From: Caldovatus aquaticus
Lineage (GTDB): Bacteria > Pseudomonadota > Alphaproteobacteria > Acetobacterales > Acetobacteraceae
Assembly (NCBI RefSeq): GCF_019458025.1
Contig: NZ_JAHZUY010000001.1
Span: forward strand, 62,001-126,000
Length of the DNA stretch: 64,000 bases
Reading direction: 5' to 3'
Shown here: piece by piece, positions 35,929-51,832 of the stretch
Layout: each line of letters opens with the position of its first letter
How positions within the stretch are numbered: position 1 is the first letter of the stretch
Notes under the pieces: model-generated
What the model was told of the DNA's origin: nothing
Seen by the model: only the letters and a program-made list of their open reading frames with translations
Database searches by the model: none
Translations under genes and position numbers: made by a program

Positions 35929-37380
35929 TCAGAACGGGTACGGCCGCGGGCCGGTCTGGATCGTGATCCAGCGCAGCTCGGTGAAGGCCTCCACCGCCGC
36001 CTTGCCGCCGAAGCGGCCGTAGCCCGAGGCCTTCATGCCGCCGAAGGGCATCTGCGCCTCGTCATGCACGGTGGGGGCGTTGATGTGGCAGATGCCGCTC
36101 TCGATCCGCCTGGCGACGCCGAGCGCCCGGCCGATGTCCCGCGAGAAGACCGCGGCGGCGAGGCCGTACTCGGTGTCGTTGGCGATGCGGATCGCCTCCT
36201 CGTCGCCGTCCGCCCGGATGACGGCGACGACCGGACCGAAGCTCTCCTCGCCATAGAGGCGCATCGCCGGGGTGACGCGATCGAGGATGGTCGCGGGCAT
36301 GATCGTGCCGTCCGGCAGGCCTCCGCAGGCGAGCACGGCGCCCTTGCCCACCGCGTCCTCGACCAGCGCCTTTACGCGGCCGGCGGCTTCCCGGGAAACC
36401 AGGGAGCCGAGCACGACATTGCCCGCGCGCGGGTCGCCGGAAGGCAGGCTCTTCGCCCGGGCGACGAACTTCTCGAGGAAGGCGTCGGCCACCTTGGCGT
36501 CCACGATGACGCGCTCGGTGGACATGCAGATCTGGCCCTGGTTCATGAAGGCGCCGAAGGTCGCGGCTTTCGCCGCCTCCTCCAGATCGGCGTCGTCCAG
36601 CACGACCAGCGGCGCCTTGCCGCCCAGCTCGAGCAGCACCGGCTTGAGATAGCGCGCCGCCGTCTCGGCGACGATCCGGCCGACGGCGGTTGAGCCGGTG
36701 AAGTTGATGCGCCGCACCGCGCGATGGGCGATCAGCGCCTCCACGACCTTCGCCGCATCGGCGGGCGCATTGGTCACGACGTTGACGACCCCCGGCGGGA
36801 AGCCCGCGTCGCGCATCACCTGGCCGATCATCTGATGCGTGCCCGGGCAGGTCTCGGAGGCCTTCAGGACCACGGTGTTGCCGCAGGCGAGCGGCATGGC
36901 GATCGCGCGCACGCCCAGGATGACGGGGGCGTTCCATGGCGCGATGCCGAGGCAGACCCCGGCCGGCTGGCGGATCGCCATGGCCAGGTTGTTCGCCTTG
37001 TCGGACGGGATCACCTCGCCGGCGATCTGCGTCGTCATCGCGGCCGCCTCGCGCAGCATCCCGGCCGCCAGGCCGACATTGAAGCGGCCCCATTCGCGGG
37101 TGCAGCCCGTCTCCGCCATCATCAGCCCGCAGAAATCCGCCGCGCGCTGCTGCAGCAGCTCGGCGGCCGCCAGCAGTCTGGCCCGCCGTTCGCCGGGGCC
37201 GGTCTGCGACCAGGCCGGGAAGGCGTCCTGCGCCGCATCGGCTGCGGCGACGGCGTCGCCGCCGGTCGCGGCCGCGGCGCGCGTTGCGATCTCGCCGGTC
37301 ACCGGATCGAGCCGATCGAAGGTGCGGCCGTCGGCGGCACCGATCTCGCGCCCCTGGATCATCAGGTTGACGTGGTTCAT
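35929..37380 (-). CDS. aldehyde dehydrogenase (benzaldehyde/vanillin/salicylaldehyde type), internal start product
   Basis: From the ATG at 37380 the product is a 483-residue NAD(P)-dependent aldehyde dehydrogenase. It has GIAPWNAPVILGVRAIAMPL near residue 138, INFTGSTAVGR near 215 for cofactor binding, and LLELGGKAPLVVLDDADLEE with the general-base Glu. FMNQGQICMSTERVIVD carries the catalytic Cys. NQGQICMSTER is characteristic of the vanillin/benzaldehyde/salicylaldehyde branch, which suggests an aromatic aldehyde substrate. Its own ribosome site makes an independent protein plausible even though it is also the C-terminal half of the LivF fusion. It pairs logically with the thiamine-diphosphate decarboxylase at the head of the operon. 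Confidence 0.8.
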   Translation of the reverse strand: MNHVNLMIQGREIGAADGRTFDRLDPVTGEIATRAAAATGGDAVAAADAAQDAFPAWSQTGPGERRARLLAAAELLQQRAADFCGLMMAETGCTREWGRFNVGLAAGMLREAAAMTTQIAGEVIPSDKANNLAMAIRQPAGVCLGIAPWNAPVILGVRAIAMPLACGNTVVLKASETCPGTHQMIGQVMRDAGFPPGVVNVVTNAPADAAKVVEALIAHRAVRRINFTGSTAVGRIVAETAARYLKPVLLELGGKAPLVVLDDADLEEAAKAATFGAFMNQGQICMSTERVIVDAKVADAFLEKFVARAKSLPSGDPRAGNVVLGSLVSREAAGRVKALVEDAVGKGAVLACGGLPDGTIMPATILDRVTPAMRLYGEESFGPVVAVIRADGDEEAIRIANDTEYGLAAAVFSRDIGRALGVARRIESGICHINAPTVHDEAQMPFGGMKASGYGRFGGKAAVEAFTELRWITIQTGPRPYPF

Positions 37381-38157
37381 GGTTCGCTCCCGAGGGGTGG
37401 AGGGGACCGGCAGCGTCGGCGCCGTGGATCCGCCCATGCCGGCGATCGCGTGCCCGCCGAGATAGGCGGCGACGACCTTCGGATCGCGCGCCAGGGCGGC
37501 GGCCTCGCCCTGGCCGACGATGCGGCCGTTGGCGAGGAGGTAGGCGCGGTCGGCCAGCTTCAGGCTCTTGCGGGCGTTCTGCTCGACGATCAGGACCGCC
37601 GTTCCGCGCGCCTTGATCGCGGCCAGGGTCCGGAAGAGCTCGGCGGCCATCAGCGGGGAGAGGCCGAGCGACGGCTCGTCCAGCATCAGCAGGTCGGGGC
37701 GGGACATGAGCGCCCGGCCGATGGCGACCATCTGCTGCTCGCCGCCGGACATGGTGCGGACCTGCTGGCCCAGCCGCTCCCGCAGCCGGGGGAAGAGGGC
37801 GAGGACCTCCTCCAGCGTCGCGCGCTCCTGCGCGCGCGCGCGGCGCGGAAAGGCGCCGAGCTGCAAATTCTCGCGGACGGTCAGGTCCCCGAAGACGCCG
37901 CGGCCTTCCGGCACCAGCGCGATCCCGCGCTCGACGATGTCGTTGGCCGGGCGTCCGGCGAGCGGCACGCCGCCGAAGACGACGGCCGTTCCGCGTCCGA
38001 CCGGCACGAGGCCGGCGATGGCCTTCAGCAGGGTCGTCTTCCCGGCGCCGTTCGCGCCCAGGATGGCCACCGTCTCGGCGCGTCCGACACGGAGGGAGAC
38101 GCCGTCCACGGCCCGGTGCGCGCCGTGGGCCGCGGTCAGGTCGGCGACCTCAAGCAT
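35929..38157 (-). CDS. LivF-type ABC ATPase fused in frame to aldehyde dehydrogenase (no stop between them)
   Basis: One 742-codon frame encodes two complete proteins. Residues 1-240 are a high-affinity branched-chain amino acid-type ATPase (LivF): GANGAGKTT at 34-42, Q-loop region ALVPEGRGVFGDLT, signature TMSGGEQQM and Walker B LLMLDEPSLGLS. Residues 260-742 are an aldehyde dehydrogenase. The join is a 20-residue Gly/Pro/Thr linker in place of the usual LivF stop. A good ribosome site (GGGAGCGAACC) lies just before the internal ATG at 37380, so separate translation of the dehydrogenase is also likely. The start overlaps livG by 8 bases. It is the last gene of the operon behind the decarboxylase. 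Confidence 0.75.
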   Translation of the reverse strand: MLEVADLTAAHGAHRAVDGVSLRVGRAETVAILGANGAGKTTLLKAIAGLVPVGRGTAVVFGGVPLAGRPANDIVERGIALVPEGRGVFGDLTVRENLQLGAFPRRARAQERATLEEVLALFPRLRERLGQQVRTMSGGEQQMVAIGRALMSRPDLLMLDEPSLGLSPLMAAELFRTLAAIKARGTAVLIVEQNARKSLKLADRAYLLANGRIVGQGEAAALARDPKVVAAYLGGHAIAGMGGSTAPTLPVPSTPRERTMNHVNLMIQGREIGAADGRTFDRLDPVTGEIATRAAAATGGDAVAAADAAQDAFPAWSQTGPGERRARLLAAAELLQQRAADFCGLMMAETGCTREWGRFNVGLAAGMLREAAAMTTQIAGEVIPSDKANNLAMAIRQPAGVCLGIAPWNAPVILGVRAIAMPLACGNTVVLKASETCPGTHQMIGQVMRDAGFPPGVVNVVTNAPADAAKVVEALIAHRAVRRINFTGSTAVGRIVAETAARYLKPVLLELGGKAPLVVLDDADLEEAAKAATFGAFMNQGQICMSTERVIVDAKVADAFLEKFVARAKSLPSGDPRAGNVVLGSLVSREAAGRVKALVEDAVGKGAVLACGGLPDGTIMPATILDRVTPAMRLYGEESFGPVVAVIRADGDEEAIRIANDTEYGLAAAVFSRDIGRALGVARRIESGICHINAPTVHDEAQMPFGGMKASGYGRFGGKAAVEAFTELRWITIQTGPRPYPF

Positions 38158-38881
38158 CCCCGTCCTCGCCGAGATAGGCGGCGATCACGGCCGGGTCGGA
38201 GAGCGCCTGCTCCGGCGTGCCCTCCGCAACGGCGCGGCCCGCGTTCATCACCAGGACGCGGGTGCAGAGCGCCCGGATCGCATCCATCACATGCTCGACC
38301 ATGACGATGGTGATGCCGTCCTCCGCCAGCGCCCGAACCAGCGCGATCCCCTGGACGAGCTCGGACGGGTTGAGCCCGGCAAGCCACTCGTCGAGCAGCA
38401 GCAGCCGCGGGCGTGCGGCCAGCGCGCGCGCAAGCTCCACGCGCTTCTGGTCGATGTAGGTCAGGCGAGCGGCCGGATGGTCGGCGCGCCCGGCGAGACC
38501 GACGCGCGACAGCAGCGGCAGCGCGCGCGCCAGCGCCTCGGCGGGCGAGCAGGGGTCGGCTCCGAACATGGCGCCGATCGCCACGTTCTCCGCGATGGTG
38601 AGGGAAGGCATGATGCGGACGAGCTGGAAGGTGCGCGCGATCCCGAGCCGCGTGATGGCATGGGGCGGCAGCCGGTCCAGCCGCCGATCGCCGAACAGGA
38701 TCATCCCCTGATCCGGCTTCAGCGCGCCGGTGATCAGGTCGAGGACGGTGGTCTTGCCCGATCCGTTCGGCCCGACCAGGCCGAGGACGTCGCCCTGCCG
38801 CACGGACGCCGCCATCGCCTCGACCGCGCGCAGGCCGCCGAAGCTCTTGTGCAGGCCGACGATGCGGAGCAGCGGCTGCAC
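38150..38881 (-). CDS. livG: branched-chain amino acid-type ABC transporter ATPase LivG
   Basis: The 243-residue ATPase has Walker A GPNGSGKTT at about 37-45, the long LivG insertion around GIARTFQLVRIMPSLTIAEN, and Walker B LLLLDEWLAGLN. The signature motif is unusual: the expected LSGGQ-like loop reads LTYIDQKRVELARAL, with Ile where the invariant second Gly normally stands. The residue after the catalytic Glu is Trp. Otherwise length and order match LivG. It would pair with the LivF-like domain to power LivH/LivM. It overlaps the livF fusion gene by 8 bases and follows livM closely. Confidence 0.9.
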   Translation of the reverse strand: MQPLLRIVGLHKSFGGLRAVEAMAASVRQGDVLGLVGPNGSGKTTVLDLITGALKPDQGMILFGDRRLDRLPPHAITRLGIARTFQLVRIMPSLTIAENVAIGAMFGADPCSPAEALARALPLLSRVGLAGRADHPAARLTYIDQKRVELARALAARPRLLLLDEWLAGLNPSELVQGIALVRALAEDGITIVMVEHVMDAIRALCTRVLVMNAGRAVAEGTPEQALSDPAVIAAYLGEDGDA

Positions 38882-38887
38882 GGCGCC

Positions 38888-39838
38888 TCACGCTGCCGGA
38901 CGCGGGTGCGTCCGCCGGGCAAGGCGCAGGGCGCCCCGTCCCTGCTCGATCAGCCCGACGACCCCGCGCGGCAGGAGGTAGACCACGCCGAGGAAGACGA
39001 GGCCGAGCAGGACCGAGAAGGCGTTGGGGAAATTGGCCTGCAGCAGCTCGAACAGGACGGCGAGCGGCACCACGCCGAGCAGGGGGCCGAACAGCCGCCC
39101 CGCACCGCCGAGCAGCGCCATGATCAGGACCTGGAAGGACAGGATCGGGTTGAAGGCGATCGCCGGGTCGATGTAGGTCCAGCGCGGCGCCATGATCGCG
39201 CCGACGAGGCTGATCAGGGTGGCCGAGATCGCGAAGACCGCGACCTTCGTGCGGGTCGTGTCCACGCCGCAGTGGCGTGCCGCGATCTCGTCATCGCCGA
39301 TCGCGCGCAAGGCCCAGCCGAGACGCGACCGGCCGATCCACCAGCCGACCAGGAAGACCAGGACGCAGACGGCGAGCAGCAGCCAGTAGATGCCGCGCGG
39401 CGTGACGTCCACGAAGACGAAGCGCCCGACGGTGCCGCCGAGCCTGGCTTCGGCATAGGTGACGAGCTGGCGGATCAGCTCGGCCAGGCCGAAGGTGAAG
39501 ATCACGAAATACACGCCCGACAGGCGCAAGGTGGAGAGCCCGACGACGGCGGCCACGACCGCGCCGGCGAGGGCGGCAGCGGGATAGACGAGGGGCAGCG
39601 GGAGCGCCTCGCCGAGGAAGGCCGTGGTGTAGGCGCCGATCCCGAAGAAGGCCGCGGTGGCCAGCGAGACGTAGCGCGTCGGCCCGGAAAAGAGCGCCCA
39701 GGCGGTCGCCAGCGCGGCGTACATCAGGACGTTCACCAGCAGCGACTGCCAGAAGGGACCGAGGAGGAGAGGCAGGGGCGCGAGCGCCAGGGCCGCGACG
39801 AGGACCGCGATCGGCACGGCAGGATCGCGGCGCCTCAT
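38888..39838 (-). CDS. livM: branched-chain amino acid-type ABC transporter permease LivM
   Basis: The 316-residue inner-membrane permease has about nine hydrophobic segments. Typical LivM blocks are SLATAAFFGIGAYTTAFLGE near residue 58 and STLRLSGVYFVIFTFGLAEL near 101. The coupling-loop EAA-like region is WALRAIGDDEIAARHCGVDT near 175, and ILSFQVLIMALLGGAGRLFG is near 230. The ATG overlaps the stop of livH (ATGA). An in-frame extension upstream belongs to another frame of livH and was rejected. Together with LivH it forms the channel of the importer, whose ligand is probably an organic acid rather than leucine given the operon. Confidence 0.93.
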   Translation of the reverse strand: MRRRDPAVPIAVLVAALALAPLPLLLGPFWQSLLVNVLMYAALATAWALFSGPTRYVSLATAAFFGIGAYTTAFLGEALPLPLVYPAAALAGAVVAAVVGLSTLRLSGVYFVIFTFGLAELIRQLVTYAEARLGGTVGRFVFVDVTPRGIYWLLLAVCVLVFLVGWWIGRSRLGWALRAIGDDEIAARHCGVDTTRTKVAVFAISATLISLVGAIMAPRWTYIDPAIAFNPILSFQVLIMALLGGAGRLFGPLLGVVPLAVLFELLQANFPNAFSVLLGLVFLGVVYLLPRGVVGLIEQGRGALRLARRTHPRPAA

Positions 39839-40710
39839 CGGCCGGGTTTCCCGAACAGCCCGGTCGGCCGGACCAGCAGGACGGCCAGGAACAAGGCGAA
39901 GTTCACCGCCATGGTCAGGCCGGGATCGAGGAACCCCGTCGCCAGCGCCTCCGCCAGGCCGAGGATCAGCCCCGCCACGAGCGCGCCGAGCGCGTTGCCG
40001 ACCCCGCCCATGATGACGACGATCAGCGCCTTCATGGTGAAGACGACGCCCATCGCGGCGTTGAAGGTGAGGAACATCGAGACGAGCACCCCCGACGCCG
40101 CGACCATGGCCCCGCCGAGGGCGAAGGCGAAGGCGGCATAGGACCGGGCGTCGATGCCGACGAGCGAAGCGGACGAAGGGCTGGCCGCGACGGCGCGGAT
40201 CGCGGTGCCGATCCGCGTGCGCGTCAGCGCGCCGTAGAGCGCGACGGCCAGCGCCGCCGCGATCGCCGCCGCCAACAGCCGGTTCGCCGCGACCGGGGAG
40301 CCGGCGATCCGGATCGGCACGGCGAGGTAGGAATAGGAGAAGTAGGTGCCGCCGAAGAGCAGCAGCAGCACACCCTGCACGATGAAGAGCAATCCGAAGG
40401 TGGCAAGGATCGTGTCCACCTCCAGGGCGGCGGCATCCGGGGCGCGGCGGACCAGGGGTGCCAGCAGCCCCTGGTAGATGAGCCAGTTCGCCAGGAAGGA
40501 CACCGGCATGGCGATGGCGAGCGCCAGGATCGGACTGACGCCCGCCAGCGCGAACAAGGCATAGGCCGCGAAGGAGGCGGCGACGGTGAACTCGCCATAG
40601 GCAAGGTTCATGATCCGCGCGACGCCGTATTGCAGCGTCAGCCCGATGGCGATCAGGGCGTAGATCCCGCCGAGCACCAGGCCGGACAGGACGACGTCGA
40701 TGACGAACAT
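39835..40710 (-). CDS. livH: branched-chain amino acid-type ABC transporter permease LivH
   Basis: The 291-residue polytopic permease starts MFVIDVVLSGLVLGGIYALI, followed by IGLTLQYGVARIMNLAYGEF, the LivH hallmark. TRIGTAIRAVAASPSSASLV near residue 165 is the cytoplasmic coupling loop, and FTMKALIVVIMGGVGNALGA near 225 is also conserved. About eight membrane spans are visible. It lies 30 bases after the receptor gene and overlaps livM by 4 bases. Confidence 0.93.
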   Translation of the reverse strand: MFVIDVVLSGLVLGGIYALIAIGLTLQYGVARIMNLAYGEFTVAASFAAYALFALAGVSPILALAIAMPVSFLANWLIYQGLLAPLVRRAPDAAALEVDTILATFGLLFIVQGVLLLLFGGTYFSYSYLAVPIRIAGSPVAANRLLAAAIAAALAVALYGALTRTRIGTAIRAVAASPSSASLVGIDARSYAAFAFALGGAMVAASGVLVSMFLTFNAAMGVVFTMKALIVVIMGGVGNALGALVAGLILGLAEALATGFLDPGLTMAVNFALFLAVLLVRPTGLFGKPGR

Positions 40711-40740
40711 CGGGCAGGCCGCGCGGATCGGCGACGAGGC

Positions 40741-41961
40741 CTAGGCGGCGCCCCAGGCCGGCTTCGGGAAGCGGATCGGCTGCACGCCGGGGACGCCGGG
40801 CGGGCCGACGGCCACGAACTCGCCGCCCTGCCACTGGCCCACCCACCATTGCCGGACGCGCTGGTTGTTCTCGAGCCTGACGGTGCCGATGACGGTCTCG
40901 AACGTGCCCGATGCGATCGCGCGGATCAGGGCGGGGCGGTCCACGCCGACCTGCGCGATCGCCTGTTCCAGCACCTGCAGCGAGGCGTAGGTGACAGGCG
41001 AGGCCCAGCCGTCGGGCGGGCGGCCGATCACCTGGGTGTGGCGCGCGATGTAGTCGCGGATGGCCGGGCTCTGCGTGTCCACCCCGCCGATCCCCGTCAC
41101 CCCTTCCGCGTTGTTGCCGAAGCGCTGCCGGAACAGGGGGAAGGCCGTTCCCACCGCCGTGTAGAAGACCTTCGGGTTGAAATTCGCGATCCGCGCCTGC
41201 TCGGTGAGCGCGAGGGTGTCGGGCGGATAGGAGAAGGCGATGAAGATCTCCGGGTTCGCGCGGGCGGCTTCGGCGATGATGGGCGACAGGTCCTGGGAGC
41301 CGAGCGGATACTGCCGATCCATCAGGATGCGGAAGCCGGCGCGGTTCAGCGCCGCCCGCCCGGCGTTCATCAGCTCGATGCCGAACTGGTCCTGCACGGA
41401 GACCAGCGCGACCGTGCTGCCGAGGCCGTGCTCCTGCCGCAGCCCCTGCAGCGCCGAGACCAGCGCCTCGGCGGCGGCCGAGGAGCGGCCGAGGAAGAAG
41501 AAGGCGTTCGGCCAGCGCTGCACCAGCTCCGGGATCCGGTCGGTGACTGAGGTCACCGCGAGGTGCGGATAGCCCGCCCGGTTGAGCACCGGGCCGACCG
41601 CCAGGTTGAGCGCCGTTCCCCAGGGCGGCAGCACCAGATCCGCGCGGTCCTGGTTGATGAGCCGGTCCACGTTGCGGACGGCCTCCTCGGACTGGGAACG
41701 GTCGTCATACTCGATCAGCTCGATCGGACGACGCTGGCCATCGGGCAGACGCAAGCCGCCCGCCTCGTTCACCGTGCGGGCCCAGAGCTGGTAGTTCGGC
41801 AGGGTCGTCGTGTTCGCGCCGCCGGCATTCGGCCCGGTCTTCGAGATGGAGTAGCCGATGCGAACGGGCCGCGCCTGCGCGCGCGCCGCGGTGCCGAGGA
41901 CCGCTGCCGTCGCGATGCCGCCGAGCAGGGCGCGGCGGTCCGGCGTGAAACGCGGGGGCAT
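40741..41961 (-). CDS. ABC transporter periplasmic receptor, LivK/amide-urea-like family
   Basis: The 406-residue type I periplasmic binding protein has a twin-arginine-like signal (DRRALLGGIATAAVLGTAARA, cleavage near residue 28). RPVRIGYSISKTGPNAGGAN opens the mature domain. GRPPDGWASPVTYASLQVLE near 320 and a long central part with VALVSVQDQFGIELMNAGRA match LivK-like receptors. No lipobox is present. It delivers its ligand to the LivHMGF complex encoded just downstream. Members of this subfamily with catabolic neighbours often bind aromatic or amide compounds; the ligand here is inferred only from context. Confidence 0.9.
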   Translation of the reverse strand: MPPRFTPDRRALLGGIATAAVLGTAARAQARPVRIGYSISKTGPNAGGANTTTLPNYQLWARTVNEAGGLRLPDGQRRPIELIEYDDRSQSEEAVRNVDRLINQDRADLVLPPWGTALNLAVGPVLNRAGYPHLAVTSVTDRIPELVQRWPNAFFFLGRSSAAAEALVSALQGLRQEHGLGSTVALVSVQDQFGIELMNAGRAALNRAGFRILMDRQYPLGSQDLSPIIAEAARANPEIFIAFSYPPDTLALTEQARIANFNPKVFYTAVGTAFPLFRQRFGNNAEGVTGIGGVDTQSPAIRDYIARHTQVIGRPPDGWASPVTYASLQVLEQAIAQVGVDRPALIRAIASGTFETVIGTVRLENNQRVRQWWVGQWQGGEFVAVGPPGVPGVQPIRFPKPAWGAA

Positions 41962-41995: not shown

Positions 41996-42994
41996 TCAGC
42001 CTTCCTCGATCCGGATGCCGGCCTGGCGGATGATCGGCTCCCACATCTCGGCCTCGGCCCGCATGGCCTGCCCCAGGGCCTCCGGGGTCGAACCCACGGC
42101 GGCCGCGCCGAGCTCGGCCAATCGGCCGGTCACGGCCGGATCGCGCAGGGCCGCCGCCATGTCGCGCGCGATGCGCGCCACGATCTCGGCAGGCGTGCGC
42201 GCGGGGGCGAAGAAGGCGAACCAGGACGCGACGTCGAAGTCCGGAACCGTCTCGGCGATGGGCGGCACATCCGGGATCGCCGCCGCGCGGCTGCGCGTGG
42301 TGACCCCGAGGGCCCGGATGGTGCCGGCCCGGAGATGGGAGGCGGAGACGGTCAGGGTGTCGAACATCACGTCGAGACGGCCCGCGATCAGGTCGTTCAT
42401 CGCCGGCGCCGCGCCGCGATAGGGGACATGGACGAGGTTGACGCCGGTGCGATGCTTGAACAGCTCGCCCGCGAGGTGGATGGAGGTGCCCACACCGGCC
42501 GAACCGAAGGTGAGCCGCCCGGGATTCGCCCGCGCGCGCGCGATGAAGTCCGCCACGCCGCGATCCGGCGAGGTGGCCGGCACGACCATCACATTCGGCA
42601 CGCTGATCGCCAGCGAGACCGGCGCCACGTCCGCCGCCGGATCGAAGGGCATGCGCGCATAGAGGAAGCGGTTCACGGCGATCGATTGCGACGTGATCAG
42701 CAGGGTGTGCCCGTCGGGCTCGGCGCGCGCCACTTCGGCGCCGGCGATGTTGCCGCCGGCCCCGGCGCGGTTCTCGACAACCACCGGCTGCCCCCAGGCC
42801 TGCCGCAAGTGATCGGCCAGCAGGCGGGCGACGATGTCGGCGGCGCCGCCGGGCGGGAACGCCACCACGATGCGCACGGGGCGGGCAGGAAAGGCTTGGG
42901 CGCGACCGGGCGAGACGCGCAGGGCGGCCATCGCCGCCGCCGTGGCCAGCAGGCGGCGGCGTCCGGCCCCTCCGCGCGGCGTCCGAGTGCTCAT
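41996..42994 (-). CDS. Bug/TctC-type substrate-binding protein
   Basis: The 332-residue receptor has an Arg-rich, Tat-like signal (GRRRLLATAAAMAALRVSPG, cleavage after AQA) and the Bug opening FPARPVRIVVAFPPGGAADI. VVENRAGAGGNIAGAE and HVPYRGAAPAMNDLIAGR follow. The ATG at 42994 has GGAGGAGGACGCC in front. A second Met 5 codons upstream lies inside that ribosome site. It sits inside the operon between the decarboxylase and the Liv importer, so two different periplasmic receptors serve one pathway, or Bug acts as a sensor of the substrate. Confidence 0.93.
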   Translation of the reverse strand: MSTRTPRGGAGRRRLLATAAAMAALRVSPGRAQAFPARPVRIVVAFPPGGAADIVARLLADHLRQAWGQPVVVENRAGAGGNIAGAEVARAEPDGHTLLITSQSIAVNRFLYARMPFDPAADVAPVSLAISVPNVMVVPATSPDRGVADFIARARANPGRLTFGSAGVGTSIHLAGELFKHRTGVNLVHVPYRGAAPAMNDLIAGRLDVMFDTLTVSASHLRAGTIRALGVTTRSRAAAIPDVPPIAETVPDFDVASWFAFFAPARTPAEIVARIARDMAAALRDPAVTGRLAELGAAAVGSTPEALGQAMRAEAEMWEPIIRQAGIRIEEG

Positions 42995-45438: not shown

Positions 45439-46005
45439 CCGTCCCGCCCGGGGCCCGCGTCCTGGCGGCTTCGCCCCTCGCCCGGCCGGACGATGGCGGC
45501 GGCGAGCCGGGTGCCGCCGCGCGGTCGCGGGCGAGGCGGAGGCGCCGGCCGGGCCTCGGCCCGACGGGTCCGGCGCGGCCTGGCGCCGGCGCGATCCGCC
45601 CGGCGCTGCGGGAGGCGGAGCCGCGCCACGCCGCCGTGGCCGTCGTGCGGGGCGGCAGGCGAGACCGCGGCCGGCGGCAGGCGCCCATCGGTGGTCCGCG
45701 CGCAGGGCGCCCGCGTTCGACCGCGCGCCGCGCGGCTGCGGCCCTCTCCGTTCCGCAGCGGGCCGCAACGCCGCGGGCACGCGCCGCGGACACGGAGCGG
45801 ATCGCCGGGGCCCGGCGCCCCAACCGCACCTGCTGGCGGGCCTGCGCGAGGATGGTATGTCGGAGTGCGGGAACACCGGGGACGGGCCGGGGCGGCACGC
45901 GGCGACACGGCGCGTGGCCGGCGCGGCCGGCGGCCCCGGCGACGACCCGGGAGGAGACGGCCGCGGCGCGCGCCCGCGTCCGCGCCGCCGAGGAGAGCGA
46001 ATCGG
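45439..46005. other. 567 bp region without a recognisable gene
   Basis: Frames run open but give Arg/Ala/Pro-rich peptides with no domain. The sequence contains many short GC inverted repeats. A good ribosome site (AGGAGAGCGA) at the right end belongs to the deacetylase gene. An ATG-led in-frame extension from 45493 is judged non-coding. Confidence 0.4.
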
Positions 46006-46884
46006 ATGCCCATGCAGCCGCGCGAACGCGCGCCCTATTCCGCCATCGTGGACCGCCCTCCGCTGCGCCTGCCGGACGGCGCGCGCATCGTGCTCTGGAC
46101 CGTCGTCAACCTCGAGGTCTGGGACATCGGCAAGCCGATGGCGCGGCAGGTGCTGCCGGCGCCGACCGGCCAGGCCCTGCTGCCGGACGTGCCGAACTGG
46201 TCCTGGCACGAATACGGCATGCGGGTCGGCGTCTGGCGCTTCTTCCGCCTCTACGCGCGTCTCGGCATCGCGCCCACGCTCTCGATCAACGCCCGCGTCG
46301 TCGAGGACTACGAGCGGGTGGCGGCGGAGGCGCGCGACGCGGGCTGGGAGTTCATGGGCCATTCCTGGGAGCAGGGGCCGATCCACAAGGAAGCGGACCA
46401 GCGCGCCATGATCCGGCGGTCGCTCGACCGGCTGGAGCGGTTCACCGGCACGCGCCCGATCGGCTGGCTCGGCCCCGGCCTGACCCAGACCCTGGAGACG
46501 CCGGAGCTGCTGGTGGAGGCCGGCATCAAGTACATCGGGGACTGGGTCTATGACGACGAACCGACCACCATCCGCACCGAGAAGGGCCCGCTGGTGACGC
46601 TGCCCTACACGGTCGAGATCAACGACATCCCGATGATGATCGTGCAGCACCACGAGAGCGACTACCTGCTCCGCCGCGCCCGCGACCAGTTCGACCGGCT
46701 CTACGCCGAGGGCGCGGAGCGGGCGAAGATCATGTGCATCGCCATCCACCCCTACATCTCCGGCCAGCCGCACCGCATCCGCTGGCTCGAGGAGTTCTAC
46801 GACTACGTGAACGGGCATCCCGGCGTGCTGCACTGGAACGGACCGCAGATGCTCGACTGGTACGCGGGCCAGCCGAAGCCGTGA
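46006..46884 (+). CDS. polysaccharide deacetylase-family protein (PuuE/allantoinase-like)
   Basis: The 292-residue NodB-fold protein contains IVLWTVVNLEVWDIGKPMAR near residue 28 in place of the usual TFDD block. EFMGHSWEQGPIHKEADQRA near 120 is the metal-binding His region. RPIGWLGPGLTQTLETPELL, YIGDWVYDDEPTTIR and IMCIAIHPYISGQPHRIRWL with the C-terminal His follow. This arrangement is typical of the PuuE-like branch, which includes cofactor-independent allantoinase and related amidohydrolases, rather than chitin deacetylases. There is no signal peptide, consistent with a cytosolic small-molecule amidase. The ATG at 46006 was chosen; a second ATG lies 2 codons on. Confidence 0.85.
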   Translation: MPMQPRERAPYSAIVDRPPLRLPDGARIVLWTVVNLEVWDIGKPMARQVLPAPTGQALLPDVPNWSWHEYGMRVGVWRFFRLYARLGIAPTLSINARVVEDYERVAAEARDAGWEFMGHSWEQGPIHKEADQRAMIRRSLDRLERFTGTRPIGWLGPGLTQTLETPELLVEAGIKYIGDWVYDDEPTTIRTEKGPLVTLPYTVEINDIPMMIVQHHESDYLLRRARDQFDRLYAEGAERAKIMCIAIHPYISGQPHRIRWLEEFYDYVNGHPGVLHWNGPQMLDWYAGQPKP

Positions 46885-47249
46885 CGCCCCGCGCGCGGCT
46901 GGAGGCGGCCGCGCGGGCGGCCGGATCGCCCGCCGGCCGTCCGGCGGCGGCCGCTGCGCCTGCCGGCGGTGCGCGCCGCGGGCTCCGGGGCCGGGACCGC
47001 CGCGGCGCGAGGCGGCGCCGCCCGGGCGCTCCCCGCGACCGCGCCATGCCGGCGCCCCCCGGGGATCGCGGCGTGGCCGTCGCGCGCCGCGCCTCGGCTT
47101 GACGGGCGTGGCCGCCTCGGCGAAGGGTAGGGCCGGAGGAAACGGTCAGGGACACGCAGTGTCGGACTTCGTCATCGGCTTGGTCCGGCGCGGCGCCGCC
47201 ACGGCGTCGCGCTCCGCGTCGTGAAAGCCGGGCCGGCAGGGCGCGCGGC
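46885..47249. other. 365 bp intergenic region with a possible repeat remnant and promoter
   Basis: The segment at 46951-46988 contains CCGGCGGTGCGCGC followed by GGGCTCCGG. This matches, with changes, the hairpin end of the dispersed repeat at 52951-52990, so it may be a decayed copy. A TTGACG hexamer at 47099-47104 could be a -35 element for the Liv operon, with only a weak -10 (AAGGGT) 18 bases on. No gene was recognised. Confidence 0.35.
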
Positions 47250-48110
47250 ATGCAGTTCTGGCTGATCCAGACGCTGAACAGCCTGGCGCTCGGGGGGCTG
47301 CTGTTCCTGCTCTCCTCCGGCTTCTCCCTGATCTTCGGCCTGCAGCGGATCCCCAACCTCGCGCACGGGGCGCTGTTCATGCTCGGCGCCTACATCGGCA
47401 CCAGCCTGCTCGCGCGCGAGGTGGACTTCTGGCTGGCGGCGCCGCTCGCCGGCGTGCTGGTCGGGCTGCTGGGGGTGGCGCTCGAACGCCTCGTGCTGCG
47501 CCGCCTCGCCGGCAACGAGCAGGGGCAGGTGCTGGTCACGCTCGGGGTCGCGTTCATCATCGCCGACCTCTGCCTGCTGGTCTGGACCGGCGATCCGATC
47601 CCGGTGCCGGCGCCGGAGGGGCTGCGCCGGCCGGTCTTCCTGTTCGGCTTCGCCTTCCCGACCTACCGGCTGGTGGTGCTGGGCATCGCCGTGGCCGCGG
47701 CGATCGGCCTGTTCCTGCTGATGGAGCGCACGCGGCTCGGCGCCATGATCCGCGCCGGCGTGGACGACCCGGAGATGGCGCGCGGCGTCGGCATCCGCGT
47801 CTCCGGGCTGTTTACCACGGTGTTCTGCCTCGGCGTGGCGCTGGCCGGGACCGCCGGCGTGCTCGGCGGGCCGATCCTCTCGGCCTATCCCGGGCTCGAC
47901 GCCGACATGCTGCCGCTGGCGCTGGTGGTGGTGATCCTGGGCGGGGTCGGCAGCCTGCTCGGCGCCTTCGTGGGCAGCTTCGTCGTCAGCTCGATCTACA
48001 ATTTCGGCACGGCGCTGTTCCCCGACCTCGCCTACGTCATCCTGTTCCTGCCCATGGTGCTGGCGCTGGTCTTCAAGCCGGAGGGGCTGTTCGGCCGGGT
48101 GCGGGCATGA
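47250..48110 (+). CDS. livH: second LivH-type ABC transporter permease
   Basis: The 286-residue permease starts MQFWLIQTLNSLALGGLLFL with SSGFSLIFGLQRIPNLAHGA near residue 22, the LivH hallmark. ERTRLGAMIRAGVDDPEMAR near 158 is the coupling loop, and LVVVILGGVGSLLGAFVGSF near 225 is conserved. Eight or so membrane spans are visible. It opens a second complete Liv operon (H, M, G, F, receptor, amidohydrolase) with 4-base overlaps between most genes. The ligand is unknown; the trailing amidohydrolase suggests an aromatic or heterocyclic acid. Confidence 0.93.
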   Translation: MQFWLIQTLNSLALGGLLFLLSSGFSLIFGLQRIPNLAHGALFMLGAYIGTSLLAREVDFWLAAPLAGVLVGLLGVALERLVLRRLAGNEQGQVLVTLGVAFIIADLCLLVWTGDPIPVPAPEGLRRPVFLFGFAFPTYRLVVLGIAVAAAIGLFLLMERTRLGAMIRAGVDDPEMARGVGIRVSGLFTTVFCLGVALAGTAGVLGGPILSAYPGLDADMLPLALVVVILGGVGSLLGAFVGSFVVSSIYNFGTALFPDLAYVILFLPMVLALVFKPEGLFGRVRA

Positions 48111-49117
48111 GGAGGGAGGCGGCGGGCGCGGCGGTGCGCGGCGGCCTGGCCCTGCTGGGCCTAGCCCTCCTCCCCTGGGTGCTGGGCGGCGACTTCTACG
48201 TGAACCTGGCGAGCCAGGTTCTGATCTACGCGCTGCTCGCGCTCAGCCTGAACCTGCTGATCGGCGCCGCCGGCCTCACCTCGCTCGGCCACGCGGCCTA
48301 TCTCGGCATCGCCGCCTACGCGGCGGCCTGGCTCACCGGCAACGCCGGCTTCGGCGCGCTGCCGGCGGCGCTCGCCGCGCTCGCGATCGGCACGGCCTCG
48401 GCGGCCGTCTTCGGGGTGCTGGCGCTGCGCGCCTCGGGCCTTGGCTTCCTGATGATCACCCTCGCGCTCGGGCAGATCGTCTGGGGCGTGGCCTATCGCT
48501 GGGTGTCGCTGACCGGCGGCGACAACGGCATCCGGCTGGCGGACAGGCCGGCGGTTCTGGGCTTCGACCTCGGGACGCCGGTCGCCTTCTACTACTTCGC
48601 GGCGGCCGTCTTCGCCCTCGCCTTCCTGTTCCTGCGCCGCCTCGCGCTCTCGCCCCTCGGCGCCTGCCTGCGCGGCACGAAGGAGCAGCCGCGGCGGATG
48701 GCGATGCTCGGCCACCACGTCTGGATGCTGCGCTGGATCGCCTTCGTGCTGGCGGGGTTCTGGGGCTCGGTCGCCGGGCTGCTCTACCTCTACTACCACA
48801 AATTCGTCAGCCCGCAGGCGCTGTCGCTGCAGCAGTCGGCGGAGGCGCTGCTGATGGTGCTGCTCGGCGGGTCGAGCACGCTCGCCGGCCCGGTCGTCGG
48901 CGCGGCGGTGATCACGCTGGTGAAGAACCTCGTCAGCTCCTACGTGGACCGATGGCTGACGCTGCTCGGCGTCATCTTCGTCGCGGTGGTCGTGTTCATG
49001 CCGCAGGGGATCGTTCCCGGCCTCGCCGGGCTGCTGCGGCGCCTCCGCGCCCTGCGGCCGGAGCGCGCGGGCGCCGCCCCGCCCCGCGCCGCCGCCGGCC
49101 ACGAGGCGGCGCCGTGA
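48107..49117 (+). CDS. livM: second LivM-type ABC transporter permease
   Basis: The 336-residue permease shows QVLIYALLALSLNLLIGAAG near residue 36 and TSLGHAAYLGIAAYAAAWLT near 57. The coupling loop LGACLRGTKEQPRRMAMLGH is near 185, and EALLMVLLGGSSTLAGPVVG is near 246. About nine spans are visible, with a basic, Ala-rich cytoplasmic tail of some 30 residues. It overlaps livH by ATGA and livG by GTGA. Confidence 0.93.
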   Translation: MRREAAGAAVRGGLALLGLALLPWVLGGDFYVNLASQVLIYALLALSLNLLIGAAGLTSLGHAAYLGIAAYAAAWLTGNAGFGALPAALAALAIGTASAAVFGVLALRASGLGFLMITLALGQIVWGVAYRWVSLTGGDNGIRLADRPAVLGFDLGTPVAFYYFAAAVFALAFLFLRRLALSPLGACLRGTKEQPRRMAMLGHHVWMLRWIAFVLAGFWGSVAGLLYLYYHKFVSPQALSLQQSAEALLMVLLGGSSTLAGPVVGAAVITLVKNLVSSYVDRWLTLLGVIFVAVVVFMPQGIVPGLAGLLRRLRALRPERAGAAPPRAAAGHEAAP

Positions 49118-49866
49118 GCGCCGCCGCCGCGCCGGCGCTCGCGGTCGAGGGGCTGGCCAAGCGCTTCGGCGGCCTGACTGTCACGCGCGACGTCTCGCTC
49201 GCGGTCATGCCCGGGGAGCGGCGCCTGATCATCGGCCCGAACGGCGCCGGCAAGACGACGCTCTTCAACCTCATCACCGGCGAGATCGCCGCGGACGCCG
49301 GCAGCGTGCGGCTGTTCGGGCAGGAACTGCTCGGCCTGCCGACCCGCCGGCGCGCGCATCTCGGCCTCGCCCGCACCTACCAGATCCTCACCCTCTTCCC
49401 TCGCGAGACGCTGCTGCACAATGTGGTGCTGGCCCTGCTCGGCCTCGCGCCCTTCCGCTGGGATCCCTGGAGCGCGCTCGCCTGCCGCCGCGCGCTGCGG
49501 GAGGAGGCGCTGGAGGCGCTCGCGCGCGTCGGCCTTGCCGGGGCGGCGGAGCGCACCGTCGCCGAGACCTCCTACGGCGAGCGGCGGCGCCTGGAGCTGG
49601 CGATGGCGCTGGCGCAGCGGCCGCGGGTGCTGCTGCTGGACGAGCCGCTGGCCGGCCTCTCCCAGCCCGAGCGCCACGCGATCCGCGAGCTGCTGGAGGC
49701 GATCCCGCGCGACGTCACCATCGTCATGATCGAGCACGACATGGACGTCGCCCTCGCCTTCGCCGAGCGCATCACCGTGCTGCACTTCGGCGAGGTGATC
49801 GTCGAGGGCACGCGCGCCGAGGTGGTGGCCGACCCGCGCACGAGGGAGGTCTATCTTGGCGAGTGA
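49114..49866 (+). CDS. livG: second LivG-type ABC transporter ATPase
   Basis: The 250-residue ATPase has Walker A GPNGAGKTT near residue 45, GLARTYQILTLFPRETLLHN near 87, signature ETSYGERRRLELAMALAQRP, and Walker B LLLLDEPLAGLS. MIEHDMDVALAFAERITVLH carries the switch His. These are the canonical residues, unlike the odd LivG at 38150. Its GTG start overlaps the livM stop (GTGA). The C-terminus AEVVADPRTREVYLGE is typical. Confidence 0.93.
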   Translation: MSAAAAPALAVEGLAKRFGGLTVTRDVSLAVMPGERRLIIGPNGAGKTTLFNLITGEIAADAGSVRLFGQELLGLPTRRRAHLGLARTYQILTLFPRETLLHNVVLALLGLAPFRWDPWSALACRRALREEALEALARVGLAGAAERTVAETSYGERRRLELAMALAQRPRVLLLDEPLAGLSQPERHAIRELLEAIPRDVTIVMIEHDMDVALAFAERITVLHFGEVIVEGTRAEVVADPRTREVYLGE

Positions 49867-50566
49867 CGCCGCGGCCCTGTCGCTCAGCGGGGTCGACAGC
49901 TTCTACGGCGACAGCCACGTGCTGCACGGCGTCGGCTTCGCGCTCCGGCCCGGGCGGCTGCTCGCGCTGCTCGGGCGCAACGGCGCCGGCAAGACCACCT
50001 GCCTCGCCACCATCATGGGCTTCCTCCGCCCGCGCCGGGGCGAGATCCGGCTGTACGGGGAGCGGATCTCCGGCCTGTCGCCGGAAGCGATCTGCCGGCG
50101 CGGCGTCGGGCTGGTGCCGCAGGGGCGGCGGGTGTTCCGCAGCCTCACCGTGCGCGAGAACCTGGCGGTGGCGGCGCGCGGCCGGGGCCCCTGGACCGTC
50201 GAGCGCGTCTTCGAGCTCTTCCCGCGGCTGCGCGAGCGGCACGGCCAGCTCGCCGGCTCGCTCTCGGGCGGCGAGCAGCAGATGCTCGCGATCGGGCGCG
50301 CGCTGATGGGCAACCCGCGCGTGCTGCTGATGGACGAGCCCTCCGAGGGCCTGGCGCCGCAGATCGTGGCCGAGGTCGGCCGCATCATCGGCCGGCTGAA
50401 CGCCGAGGGGCTGTCCATCGTGCTGGTCGAGCAGAACGTGAAGATGACGCTCGGCCTCGCACACGACGTCGTCATCATCAACACCGGCGCGGTGGTGTTC
50501 GAAGGCCCGGTCGAGGAGGCGCGGCGCGACGAGGCGCGGCTCGCCCAGCACCTCGGCGTGTTCTGA
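49856..50566 (+). CDS. livF: second LivF-type ABC transporter ATPase
   Basis: The 236-residue ATPase begins at a TTG preceded by GAGGGAGGT five bases away, and overlaps the end of livG by 11 bases. Walker A GRNGAGKTT is near residue 39, GLVPQGRRVFRSLTVRENLA near 85, signature SLSGGEQQML near 137, and Walker B LLMDEPSEGLAP. IVLVEQNVKMTLGLAHDVVI contains a Gln at the switch position, as is normal for LivF. Unlike the LivF at 35929 it ends with its own stop. Confidence 0.93.
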   Translation: MASDAAALSLSGVDSFYGDSHVLHGVGFALRPGRLLALLGRNGAGKTTCLATIMGFLRPRRGEIRLYGERISGLSPEAICRRGVGLVPQGRRVFRSLTVRENLAVAARGRGPWTVERVFELFPRLRERHGQLAGSLSGGEQQMLAIGRALMGNPRVLLMDEPSEGLAPQIVAEVGRIIGRLNAEGLSIVLVEQNVKMTLGLAHDVVIINTGAVVFEGPVEEARRDEARLAQHLGVF

Positions 50567-50590
50567 CGGGATTGCGGGGAGGAGGCGGAC

Positions 50591-51832
50591 ATGGAACGCA
50601 GGACGGTCCTGAAGGGCCTGGCGGGAGCGGCGGCGGCGCTCGCGGCGCCCGCGGTGCACGCGCAGCCGGCGCCGATCCGGGTGGGGATGCTGACGGTCAA
50701 GACCGGCCCGCTCGCCTCGGGCGGCATCCAGATGGAGAACGGGCTCCGGATCTTCCTCAACGACCGCGGCATGCGCCTCGCCGGCCGCCCGGTGGTGCTG
50801 ACCGTCTCCGACACCGGCGGCGTGCCCGCCCAGGCCCGCACCAAGACGCAGGAGCTGGTCGAGCGCGAGCGCTGCCAGGTGCTGATCGGCCCGCTCGCCG
50901 CCTTCGAGGCGCTGGCGATCGACGACTACATCCGCCAGGCCGGCGTGCCGATCATCAGCTCCTCCGCCGCGGCCGAGGACCTGACGCAGCGCCAGCCGAA
51001 CCCGTGGTTCGTGCGGCCCGTCGGCACCTCCGCCCAGTGCATGCACCCCTTCGCCGAGTACGCGGCCAAGGACCTCGGCTACCGGCGCATGTCCACCATC
51101 GCCGACGACTTCGCCTACGGCCACGAGCAGTGCGCCGGCTTCCAGCGCAGCTTCGAGGACAACGGCGGGCGGATCGTGCAGAAGCTGTGGCCGCCGCTCG
51201 CCGTGCCGGACTACGGCACCTACATCTCGCAGCTCAAGACCAACGCGGACGGGGCGTTCATCGGCTTCGCCGGCTCCAACGGCTTCCGCTTCGTCCGCCA
51301 GTTCAACGAGTACGGGCTGAAGGGCCGCCTGCCGCTGCTCGGCGGCATGACGGCGGTGGACGAGTCCATCCTGCAGCAGATGGGCAACGACGCGATCGGG
51401 ATCGTCTCGACCAACTGGTACTCGGCGGAGATCGACAATCCCGCGAACCGCCGCTTCGTCGAGCAGATGCGGCGCGAGCACCGGCAGGACCCCGGCTACT
51501 ACTCGGCCGGCGCGCACATCTCCGGCGCCGTGCTCGAGGCGGCGCTGGAGGCGGTGGACGGCCGGATCGAGGACAAGGAGGCCTTCATGCGCGCGCTCCG
51601 CACCGGCCGGGTGGAGGAGACGGTGCGCGGCCCGATCCGCTTCGACCAGTACGGCCAGTCCATCGGCAACGTGTACATCCGCCGCGTCGAGCGCAAGGAC
51701 GGGCGCCTGGTGAACAGCGTCATCAAGGTCTACCCGGAGGTCAGCCAGTTCTGGACCTACGACCCGCAGGAGTTCCTGCGCAACCCGGTCTATTCGCGCA
51801 ACTGGCCGCCGGCGCGCCACCTCGAGAACTAG
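50591..51832 (+). CDS. ABC transporter periplasmic receptor, LivK-type
   Basis: The 413-residue receptor has a signal peptide (MERRTVLKGLAGAAAALAAP, cleavage after VHA, with RR at the start suggesting Tat). The type I binding-protein fold begins PIRVGMLTVKTGPLASGGIQ. PAQARTKTQELVERERCQVL is near residue 78, STIADDFAYGHEQCAGF near 170, and VSQFWTYDPQEFLRNPVYSR is near the C-terminus. The last block is typical of receptors for aromatic or amide ligands. It lies 24 bases after livF and 8 bases before the amidohydrolase gene. Confidence 0.92.
   Translation: MERRTVLKGLAGAAAALAAPAVHAQPAPIRVGMLTVKTGPLASGGIQMENGLRIFLNDRGMRLAGRPVVLTVSDTGGVPAQARTKTQELVERERCQVLIGPLAAFEALAIDDYIRQAGVPIISSSAAAEDLTQRQPNPWFVRPVGTSAQCMHPFAEYAAKDLGYRRMSTIADDFAYGHEQCAGFQRSFEDNGGRIVQKLWPPLAVPDYGTYISQLKTNADGAFIGFAGSNGFRFVRQFNEYGLKGRLPLLGGMTAVDESILQQMGNDAIGIVSTNWYSAEIDNPANRRFVEQMRREHRQDPGYYSAGAHISGAVLEAALEAVDGRIEDKEAFMRALRTGRVEETVRGPIRFDQYGQSIGNVYIRRVERKDGRLVNSVIKVYPEVSQFWTYDPQEFLRNPVYSRNWPPARHLEN

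Follow-up and report, generated by a model that had tools for sequence, protein, structure and literature searches.

Does the open reading frame that spans an importer ATPase and an aldehyde dehydrogenase (ALDH) in Caldovatus aquaticus encode one maintained protein, or do two neighboring genes happen to lack a stop codon between them? We addressed this question in a window of 64,000 nucleotides (the whole stretch of DNA that was analyzed) and in related genomes. The original prediction of a single 742-codon frame containing both LivF and ALDH was borne out. In the open-reading-frame listing of the window the gene lies on the minus strand, with its ATG at 38157 and a stop ending at 35929, and the one translated product carries both PF00005 and PF00171 (Table 1). 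The predicted ALDH start at residue 260 was also correct, whereas LivF, thought to extend to residue 240, ends at about residue 235 with the typical AYLG, after which no stop follows. The Aldedh match is full-length (profile positions 5–461 of 461), and the BCA_ABC_TP_C segment (PF12399) of the LivF half scores 19.5 bits, below its cut-off of 25.5. The LivF half is 65% identical to the free LivF of locus L039, and the closest other ALDH in the window's genome shares 36% identity with the fusion ALDH. With no stop between the halves, the gene yields LivF only with an ALDH attached, unless the protein is cleaved; free ALDH could also come from the gene, given its internal ALDH start. In DNA this rich in GC, one long frame counts for little when taken alone, and many such frames overlap in the window. 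What lifts this one above chance is its recurrence and maintenance in other genomes.

Table 1. Positions in the window of the fusion gene, its parts and the neighboring importer genes.
Feature	Position	Strand	Evidence or remark
livF-ALDH fusion gene	35929..38157	-	single open frame, 742 codons plus stop; PF00005 and PF00171
ALDH part, residues 260-742, own ATG at 37380-37378	35929..37380	-	Aldedh (PF00171, Pfam) 507.7 bits, residues 276-731
Linker, residues 236-259, 24 codons, predicted unstructured	37381..37452	-	pLDDT below 50 at residues 235-259
Internal Shine-Dalgarno-like GGGAG	37387..37391	-	six bases before the ALDH ATG
LivF part, residues 1-235, HAAT-type importer ATPase subunit	37453..38157	-	ABC_tran (PF00005, Pfam) 97.3 bits, cut-off 25, residues 18-163
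livG	38150..38881	-	PF00005 and BCA_ABC_TP_C; 8-base overlap with the fusion gene
livM permease	38888..39838	-	PF02653 117.3 bits
livH permease	39835..40710	-	PF02653 109.1 bits
Periplasmic substrate-binding protein of the importer	40741..41961	-	Peripla_BP_6 165.3 bits
TctC-type binding protein, upstream, same strand	41996..42994	-	PF03401 248.1 bits; same order in L215
Thiamine-pyrophosphate (TPP) enzyme, family NF006203	43057..44832	-	672.9 bits, cut-off 456

Each half has well-known relatives. Like other LivF subunits of HAAT-type importers, the fusion possesses Walker A, signature and Walker B motifs and lies beside LivG, LivM, LivH and a Peripla_BP_6 protein (38150–41961), but it continues past AYLG into a linker and a 483-residue enzyme. 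The ATPase residues G34, N36–K40, S137–E140 and D160–E161 (Walker A, SGGEQ signature and Walker B), which in this family bind and hydrolyze ATP, are invariant in 29 aligned fused proteins, as are C544 and E510, the catalytic Cys and Glu of the ALDH. The nearest solved chains to the ALDH part are vanillin dehydrogenase 9ihb (636.6 bits) and the salicylaldehyde dehydrogenases 6qhn (623.4 bits) and NahF 4jz6 (542.5 bits), with the 9ihb and 6qhn matches spanning ALDH residues 20–482 of 483. The fusion ALDH shares close full-length sequence and the catalytic Cys and Glu with these enzymes; they are chains of 467–500 residues, whereas it is joined to an importer ATPase. Among the best 25 of 231 NCBIfam families, no named ALDH equivalog (HpaE, BADH, SSADH and others) reached its cut-off, and the best-scoring model, HpaE, gave 362.9 against 638.35.

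Among solved structures, the importer's own binding protein has no more than remote relatives (best E 2e-9). The TPP enzyme of the cluster is distantly related to benzoylformate decarboxylase and possibly acts as a 2-oxoacid decarboxylase. On the plus strand, the window holds a second importer cluster of the branched-chain-amino-acid type (45493–51832), preceded by a polysaccharide deacetylase / PuuE-like gene. Operons with the same genes and LivF directly before the ALDH (SBP-LivHMGF-ALDH) are found in Microvirga, Paracoccus, Shinella, Acidovorax, Comamonas and Sulfitobacter, but there LivF has its own stop and the ALDH follows at a spacing that may be in or out of frame. The two halves and the unfused operon are of known kinds. 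For a conserved fusion that retains an internal start, a full-text literature search, with most subscription journals outside its coverage, returned no description, in agreement with the earlier statement that no described LivF-ALDH fusion was known; excerpts of PMC9007349 and PMC4921024 do not mention it.

How widespread is the fusion? Looking for it in other genomes, as had been proposed for those of Roseomonas, proved fruitful: LivF-ALDH fusions, with their frames checked, are present in 42 genomes and fall into four supported clades. The window's own family contributes 2 of 397 genomes, namely the window's genome and G328, a member of another genus, and the Hyphomicrobium family 7 of 103. 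Two Burkholderiales families account for 9 of 74 and 24 of 399 genomes, with one of the 24 fused genes truncated where its contig stops. The searches beyond the window's family were made around fused genes that a scan of species genomes had turned up in Roseateles, Rubrivivax, Hyphomicrobium and a Burkholderiaceae MAG. G328 has the same seven genes in identical order, with a linker nine codons shorter than that of the window and a TPP enzyme in the equivalent place that is 81% identical to the window's; within its genus, a match was found in 1 of 9 genomes. In the search of the window's family, 36 of the 397 genomes had a relative of the ALDH with an E of at most 1e-90, 34 of them without the fusion; six of these matches (G167, G215, G247, G281, G327 and G350) came without a locus, in open frames of 507–545 amino acids that are too short for a fusion. 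The 399-genome family had 118 matching genomes, of which 30 loci and 40 further stretches were examined, the rest being ALDH-only rows with at most 77% identity to the query; 11 of the 40 stretches had no LivF beside the ALDH. The five other matches in the 74-genome family (L189–L193) were checked for fusion and none was fused, an adjacent LivF being present at L189 only. Finally, 271 ALDH matches of at least 38% identity in the examined loci were tested for an upstream LivF in the same frame, and no new fusion emerged.

Two readings were set aside. An in-frame ORF of 753 amino acids at L038 in G005 is not a fusion; the gene upstream of the ALDH is a TPP enzyme in a different frame. Spans of about 2.9 kb had raised the suspicion that an intervening gene had been deleted, but they start in LivG and contain LivG, LivF and ALDH with short spacers. 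We also noted that the related ALDH sits elsewhere in the cluster in some genomes, before the binding-protein gene in L039 and L117 and between the TPP enzyme and TctC in L038, and so has changed place within the cluster.

To follow the fused state through evolution, we built a tree from LivF and ALDH without the linker. It comprised 101 distinct pairs of neighboring LivF and ALDH, 41 of them fused and 60 separate (30 with the two genes in frame and 30 out of frame), after merging identical rows and leaving out rows with fewer than 300 ALDH residues, fused L254 among them. Fused genes grouped into a Burkholderiales clade of 32 genes (bootstrap 99, SH-aLRT 96), a Hyphomicrobium-family clade of five genes (100/98), the window with G328 (100/100) and L199 with L200 (100/100). 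The fused state needs four changes on this tree, with gains and losses indistinguishable by these counts, and four origins is thus the upper reading. A single group of the window pair and the five Hyphomicrobium-family genes was rejected (AU p 0.0025), in a test that assumes a group named beforehand and was here applied to one named after the tree.

Besides the join, the fused genes have in common a start site for the ALDH alone. A match of at least four bases to AAGGAGGTG at proper spacing, together with a start codon (33 ATG and 5 GTG), was present in 38 of 38 distinct fused genes, and 18 of them had the six-base match (full AAGGAG). Separate ALDH genes looked much alike, with at least four bases in 32 of 33 and six bases in 13. 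As a control, other in-frame ATGs inside the fused ALDHs had at least four bases in 165 of 471 cases and six in 0 of 471. The original prediction of a good internal ribosome site thus holds for the fused genes as a set but less well for the window itself. Its site belongs to the twelve, along with those of G328 and most Hyphomicrobium genes, that match at four bases only, as much as a third of the control ATGs reach, and is suggestive only. Of the Glu codons among the four that surround the site, 38 are GAG and 1 is GAA; in the rest of these genes the counts are 1309 and 345, a difference suggesting that the DNA itself, not just the protein, is under constraint. RNA folding was uninformative as to the internal start; in the window, folding there is somewhat strong (z -1.7), which if anything counts against our reading. 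With such a site and a start codon ahead of the ALDH in all 38 fused genes counted, free ALDH is probably made besides the fusion. Internal starts that give a C-terminal subunit are known from SctQ/SpaO and Cas8-Cas11. The LivF-ALDH genes would resemble them if long and short products are both made and co-assemble; they differ in that the proteins are unrelated and that LivF and ALDH also occur as separate genes elsewhere.

A kept internal ribosome site is also what one would expect if the stop of LivF had been lost neutrally, with LivF reading through and tolerating a tail, the functional ALDH coming from the internal start and the fusion itself having no role. Such an origin would be easy, requiring only the loss of a stop in a correctly framed GC-rich spacer, and half of the 60 separate pairs (30) are already in frame. 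We nevertheless regard this explanation as unlikely, given how the frame behaves after fusion and the fact that several clades are fused. Counted by parsimony on both a quick and a careful tree, the linker of the Burkholderiales fused clade changed length at least 16 times, with 0 frame changes and no stop gained, such that none of the 32 members with an adjacent LivF has a stop or frame break. In three separate-gene clades, by the same counting, length changed 41 times and frame 23 times (Fisher p 4.6e-5 for the comparison with the fused clade), and in the largest separate clade alone 25 and 11 times (p 0.0026). Even if neutral change were no faster than that of the protein, between 2.2 and 4.6 stop gains would be expected in the fused clade, and true neutral rates should exceed this; 0 were observed. 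Two simpler measures were given less weight. Read in the LivF frame, the linkers of the 38 fused genes contain 0 stops in 858 codons, and read in the two remaining frames 17 in 1640; the zero follows from the definition of fused. That all fused linkers are multiples of three also follows from this definition and was dropped as stand-alone evidence in favor of the clade comparison. GC content by codon position, in which linkers differ from spacers but without the usual coding pattern, was not used as evidence.

The ability of the ALDH to work alone, which would fit neutral loss of the stop, is indicated by two ALDHs that lack a neighboring LivF. A quick tree built from the ALDH alone, with 170 rows of which 69 have no adjacent LivF in the sequence examined, places L261 and L281 inside the Burkholderiales fused clade; it is less resolved than the tree of LivF and ALDH together. 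By eye, their ALDHs stand alone beside thiolase-like and MutS-like frames. The join may therefore have been lost twice by relocation, and our claim that fused genes do not revert is limited to stops and frameshifts where LivF and ALDH stay neighbors. Within that scope, the fusion appears to be kept by natural selection.

What, then, might be selected? The linkers of the 38 fused genes vary from 9 to 74 codons and consist to 58% of Ala, Ser, Pro and Thr. A search for tandem repeats gave none. AlphaFold2, run with 29 sequences (mean pLDDT 74.7), predicted for the window protein that LivF folds well and that residues 235–259 are unstructured, with mixed confidence over the ALDH. The gene product is best read, from its sequence, as a relative of vanillin and salicylaldehyde dehydrogenases flexibly linked to an importer of the branched-chain-amino-acid type. 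We judge it just on the probable side that this is a selectively maintained transporter-enzyme fusion, with tethering of the ALDH to the importer as the most likely mechanism. For the substrate, the effect of tethering and the two protein products we infer the following scheme. The LivF half would pair with LivG on LivHM, and the flexible linker would keep one ALDH subunit beside the importer's inner opening, with free subunits completing the ALDH oligomer. Anchored in this way, the ALDH could oxidize a reactive, probably aromatic, aldehyde before it spreads, whether this had been imported or was formed close by, for instance by the operon's TPP enzyme. The more specific proposal of a dual-output gene class with up to four origins, whose long product would be LivF with an anchored ALDH and whose internal start would supply free subunits for oxidizing a toxic aldehyde on entry or formation, is more tentative, and we consider it plausible rather than probable.

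The same arrangement could instead be regulatory. Some importer ATPases carry C-terminal regulatory domains, and the ALDH might act as a sensor or brake, with bound substrate or NADH altering the ATPase. The C-terminal position of the ALDH on the ATPase, its kept residues and the pairing of one fused LivF with an ordinary LivG in the window and L045 would all fit, but a linker of such variable length and predicted disorder suits tethering better than allostery, and with invariant catalytic residues the ALDH is no dead sensor, making a regulatory role distinctly improbable in our estimate. An error of sequencing or assembly, by which a stop was lost or the frame shifted in the window, is scarcely credible: although the analysis covered a single assembly of the window's genome and a scaffold gap of 10 N interrupts LivF in G328, the G328 gene reads through the join without a break from LivF residue 154 onward to its end, genomes of Hyphomicrobium and Burkholderiales have the join in full, and neither restriction to one assembly nor a misread stop accounts for a fusion that recurs and stays in frame elsewhere.

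To our knowledge, coupling of uptake to the first enzymatic step has often been proposed and seldom shown. Here an importer ATPase is joined to an enzyme in several clades, the largest of which preserved the frame even as the linker between the halves drifted. Since a single family holds closely related operons both with and without the join, one stop codon would suffice to test the cost and benefit of physical coupling; if true, the dual-output class would offer, in an ABC importer, a transport metabolon open to direct testing.

The surrounding genes give some indication of the pathway served by the tethered enzyme. On Sulfitobacter plasmid pDSM110093_c, an unfused importer-ALDH operon (L249) lies three genes downstream of pobA-pcaCHG, and its surroundings include a TRAP transporter, another NF006203 TPP enzyme and a gene of the 2,4'-dihydroxyacetophenone dioxygenase family. 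This context and the TPP enzymes in the clusters of the window and G328 suggest a role with plant- or lignin-derived aromatics, in which the aldehyde would arise from an imported 2-oxo acid or be imported as such. Neighborhoods differ between clades, so that a single fixed pathway is not indicated. For example, of the two Burkholderiales fused loci scanned, L216 shows no other catabolic gene and L207 has an AtuA-like gene upstream, and in the Hyphomicrobium family AraC-type and IclR-type regulators are found near the binding protein of L209.

Unfused LivF proteins also vary at their C-termini. By eye, those of the Burkholderiales loci L077, L079, L241, L242, L247, L258 and L259 have a short tail like TTAADAxxRR before the stop. 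In L042, L120, L146 and L149, LivF carries a tail of about 150–180 residues, often rich in Pro and Ala and with short look-alike stretches (again by eye), and stops shortly before a separate ALDH of 43–46% identity. Such a long tail might let the enzyme dock onto LivF, and the arrangement would then be the fusion's non-covalent equivalent.
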